Of a DNA stretch of 64,000 nt, positions 46,988-51,799 are shown piece by piece; position 1 is the stretch's first letter; each line of letters opens with the position of its first letter. The translations under genes and the position numbers were made by a program. Source of the DNA: Propionibacteriaceae bacterium (GTDB taxonomy: Bacteria > Actinomycetota > Actinomycetes > Propionibacteriales > Propionibacteriaceae). Location: NCBI GenBank assembly GCA_031285845.1, contig JAITVK010000014.1:1-64000 (forward strand). Reading direction: 5' to 3'. The notes below the pieces were generated by a model. That model did no database searches. It saw only the letters and a program-made list of their open reading frames with translations, and was not told the origin of the DNA.

Positions 46988-48040
46988 CTAGACCTGGGCT
47001 CGTCGGCGGAAGCCTTGTGGGACCATCGTCCATCCGCCGCGTTCCAGTGTCTCGACCCACTCGCTGGCTTTCAGGGCCGAAGTCAAGTTGATCCGCGTGA
47101 TCGTGATCGTGTCCAACCGGCGCTGGTCGATCCACTGGCCGACCAGACGAAGAGCCGACACCACCGAGTCGGGATCCTCGGTGAACGTGATCAATGTGTG
47201 AGCCCCCTTTTCGACGTAGATCACCGGCTGGCCGTCATCCAACACCACGATGGCTCCAGCGACCCGAGTCGGCCGATGCCCCATCGACTCCGGCCAGGCC
47301 AACGCGGCGCCCCAGGGGTTGGCCGGATCGCAGGCCGCCAGCAACACGAGCCCGCCGTTGGTCGACTCTCGCAGCCGATCCACCGCGCCGGGCAGCGCGA
47401 ACTGAGCCGCGCCCAGACCGTCGATGAAGTACCCCCGGCGCACCACCCGCTGATCCTCCATGGCCGCCAGCACCTTGTACGCCACGAAGAACGACGGTGT
47501 CATGGCCTCGGTCACCACGGAGCCTTTCGTCAGCACTGCGTAACGCCCCAGTTCGAGGCTGATCGCCTGGATCTGGCGTGCCGCCGGCGTCAGATCCTCG
47601 GTGGCAGGAGCGAACCAGCGGGTCGCCGCTTGTGGGGATCGTACGATCGCGCGTGGGCGTACGACTCGCCGCACCCGCGGATTGGACGGACGACGCAGCA
47701 CGCCGGCCGCCCCACTCAACGCCCGCAGCGCAGCCCACGTGTCGCATGTGGCCAACCCAGCCCAGACCAACTCCCACACCGCGGCTTGGGTCTCGCTAGC
47801 ACTCATATCCGACTCGGTCAAGGCCTCCACCGTCCAGGCGCCACCGGCGAGCAGCGCGCCTCGAATGCTCCGGGCGGTCGCCGTGAGATCGGGGGCGACC
47901 TCGGCCACCGCCAAGGGCGCGATGTCCCCCGGCCACAAACAGACCCAACCGTCATGGGCACCGAGACTGCCATGACCAGTCCAGGTCACCTCACCGGCGG
48001 CGAGCACCTCGTCCAGCATGTGTGGCGCGTAATTCGCCAC
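46988..48040 (-). CDS. lhr: C-terminal part of Lhr helicase, behind an in-frame TAG
   Basis: These 350 residues continue the Lhr sequence in the same frame (VANYAPHMLDEVLAAGEVTW, AVDRLREST, LAACDPANPWGAALAWPESMG, GWTMVPQGFRRR) and include the usual Lhr C-terminus. Seven more sense codons (SVILPAR, 48061-48041) lie between the upstream TAG and GTG 48040. I see no ribosome site or -10 box before GTG 48040, so independent translation is doubtful. It may be made by readthrough, by reinitiation after the TAG, or not at all. Confidence 0.7.
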   Translation of the reverse strand: MANYAPHMLDEVLAAGEVTWTGHGSLGAHDGWVCLWPGDIAPLAVAEVAPDLTATARSIRGALLAGGAWTVEALTESDMSASETQAAVWELVWAGLATCDTWAALRALSGAAGVLRRPSNPRVRRVVRPRAIVRSPQAATRWFAPATEDLTPAARQIQAISLELGRYAVLTKGSVVTEAMTPSFFVAYKVLAAMEDQRVVRRGYFIDGLGAAQFALPGAVDRLRESTNGGLVLLAACDPANPWGAALAWPESMGHRPTRVAGAIVVLDDGQPVIYVEKGAHTLITFTEDPDSVVSALRLVGQWIDQRRLDTITITRINLTSALKASEWVETLERGGWTMVPQGFRRRAQV

Positions 48041-48061
48041 CCGGGCTGGCAGAATGACCGA

Positions 48062-51000
48062 CTAGACCATCGACACCGGCATCGGGTAGCCAGCCAACTG
48101 ATCGACCGCTGCCAACAGCGCTTCCACACCCGAGCCGGGTTCGCTGACCTCCTGCCAGCGCGTCAAGAACGAGGCGTATCGAGCCGGCGACACCGGTTGG
48201 ATCGCGGCTCGCAGCGCGGTCAGACCATGGCGGCGGACCCGCTCCAAAACCTCAGTGGCGATGTGCTGGTCGGCGAGACCTTGAGCCGTGTCGATCCGGT
48301 GGGATCCGACGCCCTGCGCCGCGTCGACGCCCTGCGTGTCGGGGTCGACGAAACGGCCGGTCTTGGCCCAGCCTTGGACGACCAGACGATCCAGCACCGC
48401 GCTCACCGCTGCGGCGGGCACCCCGAAACGTCGCGCCACGGTTTGAGCGGTGACCACGGTGTGGCGGCCCATCCAGCGACGCACGATTCGCTCCAGATGT
48501 GAGTCGTCCTCCAGGTCGGCAAGAAGCCCGGCGTCGTCGGTGACGGCCACCATCGCCCGACCGGCCAGGACCACCTCCACGACACGCCCTGAGGCTCGCA
48601 GGTCATCCAACCATCGCCGGTTCGAGTCCTCGGTGCGCTCCGACCATTCGTCCGGCGTCAACGGCCCCATCTCGCGAAGCAGATCCCATCCTGCCTCCAT
48701 CGACCTGGCCCGACGCTTCGCGCCCGTACGTTGCAGCTCGGCCTCGACCTCGGCGAACCATGGCGTGTCCAGTCCAGGACCGCCGCTGCTGAGCAGAAGG
48801 CTGGCCAACAGCTCCGGGTCGACCCAGTTCGCCGCCGCGGCCCGCTCGGCGATCGGCGCGTCGTAGTCGTACATGAACGCGCCGGTGTAACCGAACAGCA
48901 GGGCGGTCGCGAACGGCGAGGGACGCTCGGTCGTCACTTCGACCACACGGACCCGCCGCGCCGCGATGTCGCGCATCAACTGTTTGAGCGGTTCCAAGTC
49001 GAACACGTCGCTGAGGCACTCCCGCAGCGCCTCAGCCACGATCGGGAAGTCAGGGTACGACGCCGCCACGCCCAACAACTGTGAGGCGCGCAGACGCTGC
49101 TGCCACAAAGGTGACCGCTTGCCCGGATCGCGTCGAGGCAGCAACAACGCCCGAGCCGCACATTGGCGGAAATGAGCGGTGAGCAGAGCCGACTGCTGAA
49201 GCTCGGTCGCCACGACCGACTCCACAACGCCTGGATCCAGCCACAGGTGATGTCCGATCGCGACAGAGTCAACCTCACCCAGCCGAAGCACGATGCCATC
49301 GTCAGTGACCAAAACCTGAGGGTCCTGGGCGCGGTCCAAGCCGCTGGCCAGCCGCAGGTTGCGTTGGATGATCATCGCCCACGGTTGCAGGACGGCCCGC
49401 CCCAACGGACTGTGGACGCAGACCCGCCAGGCTCCCATCTCGTCGCGATGAGCTTCGACCACGATGGTCGTGGCGTCGGGCAACACTGAAGTGGCGGCCC
49501 TCTGATCGCGCAGGTACGCCACCAGGTTGGCTTGCGCCGAAGGATCGACCCTCAGCACCTGGCCGCCGACGGCGACCGACTCGACCACCTGAGCCTGGCC
49601 GTGGTGGTCCGGGCTCGATGAGGACCGGTCCAGCCGTGGATCGCCAGGCGTGGCGAGCTCGTCCAGCTCCGGTTCGAGGCTGGCGACGTACGACCCAATG
49701 GCCGCGCCGACTTCGGCCGATCGCGACATCTCGTCACCATGCCAGAACGGCATTCGCCCAGTTTGGCCCGGAGCGGAACTGACCACCACCTGGTTGGCGT
49801 CGATCTCGTCGATGCGCCACGCGCTGGCGCCCAAGGTGAAGATGTCACCGATCCGGGACTCGTAGACCATTTCCTCGTCCAACTCACCGACTCGGCGACC
49901 GCCGACCCGACTGCCCTTGGCCTGCTCATCACCAGCCATGACCACGGTGAACAGACCACGATCAGGGATCGTCCCGCCTGAGGTCGTGACCAACCGTCGT
50001 GCCCCTGGGCGGGCCGACAATCGACCGGTGACCTGATCACGAGTCAGGCGGGGTCGAAACTCGGCGAAGTCCTCGCTCGGATAAGCCCCCGTCAGCATGT
50101 CGACGACGGAGTCGAACGCGGCGACTGGCAGGTCGGCGAAACAGTCGGCTCGCGTGACGATGTGGCGCAACTCCTCGCCGGTCAGTTGGTCGTCCAAGCA
50201 CATGGACACCAACTGTTGGGCCAGCACATCCAGCGGATTGACGATCCGACGAATCGGCTCGATCAGACCGGACACCATCCGCGCGGTCACTACCGTCGTG
50301 GTGAGCAGGTCGGAACGCGACAGCGGCAACAGAACCCCGTGGGAGATGGCCGACACCTGGTGGCCTCCACGACCGATGCGCTGCAGGCCACTGGCCACTG
50401 ACGGCGGAGAACCGACCTGGATCACCAGATCGACCGCACCCATGTCGATGCCCAACTCCAACGAGTTGGTCGCCACCACACACGGCAGGAGCCCCTGTTT
50501 GAGATCGGACTCGATCTGCAACCGAAGCGACTTGGACACCGATCCATGGTGGGTGCGCGCGATGACCGTGTCGGAGTCCCCGGGCACACTTTCTCGATAC
50601 AGCGCGTTCAAATGATTGGTCAGGCGTTCGGCCACACCCCGGGAGTTCGCGAAGCAGATCGTCGACCGATGAGCCATCACCAGATCAAAGACTTCCCGTT
50701 CGACATGGGGCCAGATCGAATTCGCCGGGGTCGACTGGTCAAGACTGAGCCGCGGATCGACCCCGACCGAAGGATCGCTGGTCGCCTCGTCACCTGATCG
50801 TACGACTGCGGACCGACCCTGGTCGATCAGTGTGGGGCTGCCGCCGACATCCGCGGACACGGTCGACACCGGGGCCGCCGTCGATGATTGAGACACGGTC
50901 GATGGCGCACTCGACGCAAGTTTCGGCGCGCTGCCTGGCGCAGGGGTGGTCAAGACCGTCATGTCTTCGACTGGCGCCACCACGTCCAACTGCCATTTCT

Positions 51001-51697
51001 TCGGCATCGTGGGAGCGACCACCACGGCCTCACGTCCTGAGCCGGTCAGGAAGCGAGCCACCACGTCGATCGGACGCACCGTGGCCGACAAACCGACCCG
51101 TTGACATCCCCCGCCCTCGTTCAACGCGTCCAGGCGTTCCAAACTGACCGCGAGGTGGGCCCCACGCTTGGTTCCAGCCAGGTAGTGGATCTCGTCGATG
51201 ATGACCGTCGACACCGTCGTCAGCGATTGTCTGGCCGCTGAGGACAGCATCAGGAACAGGGACTCGGGGGTTGTGATCAGAATCTGCGGTGGATGACTCA
51301 CCAAGCGGCGACGCTCATGCGGCGCGGTGTCGCCGCTTCGAACCCCGACCCGAATGGCCGGCACGGTCTCACCACGCTCCAGCGCCGTGGCGGCGATCCC
51401 AGCCAAAGGCAGCCGCAAGTTGCGCTCGACGTCGACCCCGAGCGCCTTCATCGGCGACACGTACAACACCTGAACTCCGGAGGGAACTGGGTCGCTCGCC
51501 AACAAACGATCCACGCTGTGGAGGAAGGCCGCCAACGTCTTGCCCGAACCCGTCGGGGCGATCACCAGCCCATGCGATCCGCGCCCGATCGCCTGCCAGG
51601 CCTCGACCTGGACCGGAGTCGGCGAACCGAAGGCGGCCCGAAACCACTGCTGTGTGGCGGGCAGGAATTGAGCCATCGGGTCAGAGGTGGTCACCAT
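48062..51697 (-). CDS. lhr: Lhr-type superfamily 2 DNA helicase, cut short by TAG
   Basis: The 1211-residue part of a large helicase-related (Lhr) repair helicase has Walker A (APTGSGKT, ~residue 45), DEIH (IIDEIHYLAG), motif III (GLSATVR) and SVASGLQRIGRGGHQ (motif VI). Winged-helix and Lhr-core domains follow. It carries a long variable insert (~255-340, Ser/Ala/Pro-rich) between the RecA domains. The frame ends at TAG 48064-48062 after YPMPVSMV, where Lhr proteins normally continue. The rest follows in the same frame. ATG 51697 is leaderless behind CACAAT (51704-51709). Confidence 0.9.
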   Translation of the reverse strand: MVTTSDPMAQFLPATQQWFRAAFGSPTPVQVEAWQAIGRGSHGLVIAPTGSGKTLAAFLHSVDRLLASDPVPSGVQVLYVSPMKALGVDVERNLRLPLAGIAATALERGETVPAIRVGVRSGDTAPHERRRLVSHPPQILITTPESLFLMLSSAARQSLTTVSTVIIDEIHYLAGTKRGAHLAVSLERLDALNEGGGCQRVGLSATVRPIDVVARFLTGSGREAVVVAPTMPKKWQLDVVAPVEDMTVLTTPAPGSAPKLASSAPSTVSQSSTAAPVSTVSADVGGSPTLIDQGRSAVVRSGDEATSDPSVGVDPRLSLDQSTPANSIWPHVEREVFDLVMAHRSTICFANSRGVAERLTNHLNALYRESVPGDSDTVIARTHHGSVSKSLRLQIESDLKQGLLPCVVATNSLELGIDMGAVDLVIQVGSPPSVASGLQRIGRGGHQVSAISHGVLLPLSRSDLLTTTVVTARMVSGLIEPIRRIVNPLDVLAQQLVSMCLDDQLTGEELRHIVTRADCFADLPVAAFDSVVDMLTGAYPSEDFAEFRPRLTRDQVTGRLSARPGARRLVTTSGGTIPDRGLFTVVMAGDEQAKGSRVGGRRVGELDEEMVYESRIGDIFTLGASAWRIDEIDANQVVVSSAPGQTGRMPFWHGDEMSRSAEVGAAIGSYVASLEPELDELATPGDPRLDRSSSSPDHHGQAQVVESVAVGGQVLRVDPSAQANLVAYLRDQRAATSVLPDATTIVVEAHRDEMGAWRVCVHSPLGRAVLQPWAMIIQRNLRLASGLDRAQDPQVLVTDDGIVLRLGEVDSVAIGHHLWLDPGVVESVVATELQQSALLTAHFRQCAARALLLPRRDPGKRSPLWQQRLRASQLLGVAASYPDFPIVAEALRECLSDVFDLEPLKQLMRDIAARRVRVVEVTTERPSPFATALLFGYTGAFMYDYDAPIAERAAAANWVDPELLASLLLSSGGPGLDTPWFAEVEAELQRTGAKRRARSMEAGWDLLREMGPLTPDEWSERTEDSNRRWLDDLRASGRVVEVVLAGRAMVAVTDDAGLLADLEDDSHLERIVRRWMGRHTVVTAQTVARRFGVPAAAVSAVLDRLVVQGWAKTGRFVDPDTQGVDAAQGVGSHRIDTAQGLADQHIATEVLERVRRHGLTALRAAIQPVSPARYASFLTRWQEVSEPGSGVEALLAAVDQLAGYPMPVSMV

Positions 51698-51703
51698 GGT
51701 TCT

Positions 51704-51709
51704 ATTGTG
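51704..51709 (-). promoter_or_regulatory. -10-like box (CACAAT) for lhr
   Basis: CACAAT, then six bases (AGAACC), then ATG 51697. The hexamer and spacing are identical to those before the YbbN-like gene. Confidence 0.45.
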
Positions 51710-51799
51710 GACCATCGCTACGACATGTCGACCAGCACCGATCCCGGCTCGACCGCCGACTGACCTTCACGCCAGCCAGACCGCCCAGATCATCGGATC

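Follow-up and report, generated by a model that had tools for sequence, protein, structure and literature searches.

Introduction

Lhr is a well-known bacterial DNA-repair helicase. In the Lhr protein of Mycobacterium smegmatis, the motor lies within residues 1-856 and the C-terminal domain builds the tetramer; an lhr deletion in this species is complemented neither by Lhr-(1-856) nor by the tetramer-defective H1199A/R1206A/R1286A form (PMC11323726). The Lhr protein of Escherichia coli has a uracil-DNA glycosylase activity, for which Asp-1536, located near the C-terminus, is needed (PMC10953399). In the present work, we have analysed the lhr gene found in a 64,000-nucleotide stretch of DNA from a Propionibacteriaceae genome (hereafter the window), the product of which shows the same domain order as the M. 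smegmatis (PDB 7LHL) and E. coli (PRK09751) proteins, but the frame of which, unlike that of these bacterial Lhr proteins, is interrupted by one TAG codon. The two settings also differ in that nei2 adjoins lhr in the mycobacterial lhr-nei2 operon, whereas the window lhr is without an adjacent nei2. The gene that adjoins the window lhr encodes an O-methyltransferase and lies on the opposite strand. In another genome (G054), lhr is closely followed by the apparent start of a Nei-type glycosylase (L022 from 5410 on), an arrangement like that of the mycobacterial operon.

Results and Discussion

The Lhr Frame and Its Interruption

Our analyses have identified an in-frame TAG at positions 48064-48062 of the window (minus strand), within an Lhr frame that is otherwise intact. 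A direct read of the minus strand from position 48070 gives ATG GTC TAG TCG GTC ATT CTG CCA GCC CGG, and translation from 51697 to 46988 (minus strand) yields 1211 residues, the stop, a further 357 residues and a normal stop, with no change of frame and no other internal stop. The part of the frame that ends with the TAG (48062..51715, minus strand), as established from the open reading frame, its translation and Pfam, comprises the helicase core and the first part of the C-terminal domain, and it corresponds to a product of 1217 aa if translation starts at the ATG at 51715 or of 1211 aa if it starts at the ATG at 51697. The rest of the frame (46988..48061, minus strand) encodes the end of WH3 and the whole of WH4. 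The per-codon coding score is equal across the TAG (0.19 and 0.20 on the two sides), and there is neither a run of identical bases nor a frameshift at the site.

All of the core domains expected of a full-length bacterial Lhr are present on the minus strand upstream of the TAG, viz. the DEAD helicase domain (PF00270, residues 27-208, 51074..51619), Helicase_C (PF00271, residues 342-445, 50363..50674), the WH_Lhr winged helix of the core (PF19306, residues 473-649, 49751..50281) and DEAD_assoc (PF08494, residues 739-930, 48908..49483). The tandem winged helices that follow in such proteins are likewise encoded on this strand, viz. WH2_Lhr (PF23236, residues 983-1061, 48515..48751), WH3_Lhr (PF23235, residues 1169-1258, 47924..48193) and WH4_Lhr (PF23234, residues 1371-1446, 47360..47587), but their series is broken, as the TAG cuts through WH3 and WH4 is absent from the truncated product. 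The WH3_Lhr profile scores 88 bits when the stop is read through and 54.6 bits when only the downstream piece is scored; since it spans the TAG and scores higher in this manner, it is one domain, and not merely one gene, that is interrupted. The match to 7LHL is similarly contiguous over the TAG, running up to chain residue 1125, resuming at 1128 and being strong on both sides. These results bear out the original prediction that a single TAG, with no change of frame, divides what is one Lhr protein. Between the two helicase domains, residues ~256-321 (window ~50735-50932, minus strand) form an insertion rich in Ser, Thr, Pro and Ala, which is not found in three other genomes (G001, G016, and G018), where the matches to Lhr end at ~255-263, resume at ~322-326 and abut on the genome.

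The Same Codon in Related Lhr Proteins

In 55 relatives from the genus, family and order, the residue aligned with the TAG is Glu (52 sequences) or Asp (3 sequences), the codons being GAG in 37, GAA in 15, GAC in 2 and GAT in 1; both G001 and G013, which belong to the same genus, carry GAG. Because an acidic residue occupies this site in all of the relatives, a single G-to-T substitution is the simplest origin of the TAG, which agrees with the change from GAG to TAG and the Glu residue in related Lhr proteins that had been anticipated from the window's sequence. Among the matches listed from 198 genomes of the family, the only interior stop in this stretch is the window's own, so that the stop stands where relatives have a sense codon and is peculiar to the window genome, as in pseudogenes of the nonsense type. 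Two flags of "1 TGA" in G051 and G054, which could have pointed to a similar stop in relatives, correspond to normal terminal stops.

The region downstream of the TAG shows no sign of relaxed selection. The mean distance of residues 1212-1568 to 23 outgroup sequences is 0.587 for the window and 0.580-0.603 for seven sequences from the same genus, and at sites conserved to 95% or more, the window shares the conserved residue in 57 of 59 cases downstream of the TAG and in 142 of 149 upstream. The lack of decay in this region indicates that the change is very recent, or that it is a base error, or that this part is still used.

Other Interrupted Genes in the Genome

A scan for stops with coding in the same frame on both sides, which detected 69% of simulated interior stops, returned 36 sites in 2.315 Mb. 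The Lhr site ranked first, and its two halves are thus not a chance pair of open reading frames. The second interrupted gene, which lies outside the window, is one of the Fic/DOC family with one in-frame TAA (contig C25:56261, minus strand), where the match to the Fic domain runs across the stop when an X is placed there. As this second interrupted gene carries TAA and not TAG, the pattern is that expected of sporadic nonsense changes. The other 34 sites were rejected as interrupted genes, as they appear to be adjacent genes that share a frame, a start codon lying only a few codons away. Among them are pairs that we take, on the basis of their sequences, to be hisE/hisG and rplY/pth.

Origin of the Premature Stop

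The continuation of the Lhr frame past the TAG without decay could be accounted for by programmed readthrough or recoding of UAG (by pyrrolysine, a suppressor tRNA or the context of the stop codon), which would yield a full-length Lhr. However, of the 1635 genes predicted in the 2.315 Mb analysed (the genome has 2.68 Mb), 198 end with TAG (12%; TGA 1344, TAA 93), release factor RF1 is present (464 bits, the cut-off being 423), and the only match to the PylRS model reaches 19.5 bits where the cut-off is 178. None of the 36 tRNAs found by ARAGORN in the 2.315 Mb reads UAG, and a pattern for a CUA anticodon and T-arm, the T-arm part of which occurs in 31 of the 36 known tRNAs, has no match across the whole genome (the remaining 0.36 Mb being covered by this pattern search alone). 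The Lhr codon is moreover the only interior TAG found in the scan, it is shared with none of the relatives, and interior UAG codons were found neither in several genes nor conserved in orthologues. A structured readthrough element was also considered and rejected, as the RNA that follows the TAG folds no better than its shuffles (z -0.28). Stop usage, RF1, PylRS, tRNAs and the interior-stop scan all speak against a recoded UAG, which was rejected on these grounds, and programmed readthrough as a whole is scarcely credible. It is also very improbable that the gene has truly been divided to encode two proteins, with translation of the second starting from the GTG at 48040 or a later in-frame codon. 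In-frame GTG and ATG codons do occur 8 and 15 codons after the TAG, and archaea are known to have Lhr proteins that consist of the core alone (PMC10953399); nevertheless, no sequence resembling a Shine-Dalgarno motif precedes the GTG at 48040 or the ATG at 48019, the GACGAG before the GTG at 48007 is weak, the break cuts through WH3 and not at the border between the core and the C-terminal domain, and Lhr is one continuous gene in relatives, the handful of detached C-terminal pieces probably being fragments at contig ends. The ribosome-binding evidence is to be read in the light of the fact that 488 of the 1635 predicted genes have a Shine-Dalgarno-like mark at their best-scoring start, so that starts in this genome are only partly marked. 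We give very little credence to a lineage-specific functional readthrough or restart at the UAG that sets the ratio of core-only to full-length Lhr.

Of the four options named in the original prediction, readthrough and a split are thus left unsupported, while a nonsense mutation and a sequence error both remain. We consider the TAG to be an ordinary premature stop, probably produced by a recent nonsense mutation, the presence of which in the organism we infer. This reading is supported by the Glu or Asp conserved in every one of the 55 relatives (with a GAG codon in 37), by the lack of an interior stop in the other listed matches of the family, by the use of TAG as a stop in 198 of 1635 genes together with the presence of RF1, and by the Fic-family gene broken by TAA and the tolerance of Lhr loss in the family. 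Against this mutation it may be held that the 357 downstream codons look fully constrained, so little time can have passed since the change, and a mutation of such recent date has the same appearance as a wrong base in a draft assembly. A base error or a minority allele in the consensus of this draft (probably metagenome-assembled) genome, with the real lhr being intact, is accordingly a possibility to be taken seriously, though we doubt it. The intact and constrained state of the remaining frame and the draft nature of the genome (37 contigs) agree with such an error, and a low rate of substitution errors could also give the two interior stops found in 2.3 Mb at a simulated sensitivity of ~69%; nothing specific speaks against an error, although the site has neither a run of identical bases nor a frameshift, and single base calls in assemblies of this type are for the most part correct. 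Under the favoured nonsense mutation, the window lhr resembles other pseudogenes with a single nonsense change in having one substitution, a frame that is otherwise intact and a dispensable gene, and differs from them only in that no further decay has begun.

Predicted Consequences of Truncation

According to the proposed mechanism, one G-to-T substitution at the conserved Glu codon of lhr would have produced UAG, at which translation would end through RF1 to give a protein of 1211-1217 residues. This protein would keep the complete ATPase/helicase core and would lose the C-terminal domain from the second half of WH3 onwards, including WH4, and it is expected to be non-functional in repair. 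By comparison with the M. smegmatis and E. coli proteins, a truncated window Lhr that is without the corresponding C-terminal region has probably kept its motor and lost its repair function. In our reading of the alignment, two tetramer residues of the M. smegmatis protein, H1199 and R1206, correspond to Ala and Glu in the window Lhr; as they are not conserved, the argument from the tetramer rests on the region and not on these residues. If the mutation is real, the window encodes a natural core-only Lhr that is predicted to unwind DNA yet to fail in the repair of crosslinks, a prediction based on the failure of both M. smegmatis Lhr-(1-856) and the tetramer-defective mutants to complement the lhr deletion.

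A premature stop of this kind is an ordinary phenomenon, and its significance alone is small, the gene being one more DNA-repair helicase that the family can lose. It also serves as a warning that, where a draft genome shows a lone stop, reads should be consulted before readthrough is put forward.

Loss of Lhr in the Family

No match to this region of Lhr is found in 18 of 141 good genomes of the family, and in several, e.g. G002 from the same genus, the core likewise has only weak helicase matches, indicating that the loss of Lhr is tolerated and that the family can dispense with the gene. In G006 (contamination 7%), contigs C1 and C2 carry two different full-length Lhr frames, representing either paralogues or a mixed bin. 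Lhr has apparently been lost several times in the family, including in G002 (1.6 Mb, 93% complete) and in a genome cluster within genus g14.
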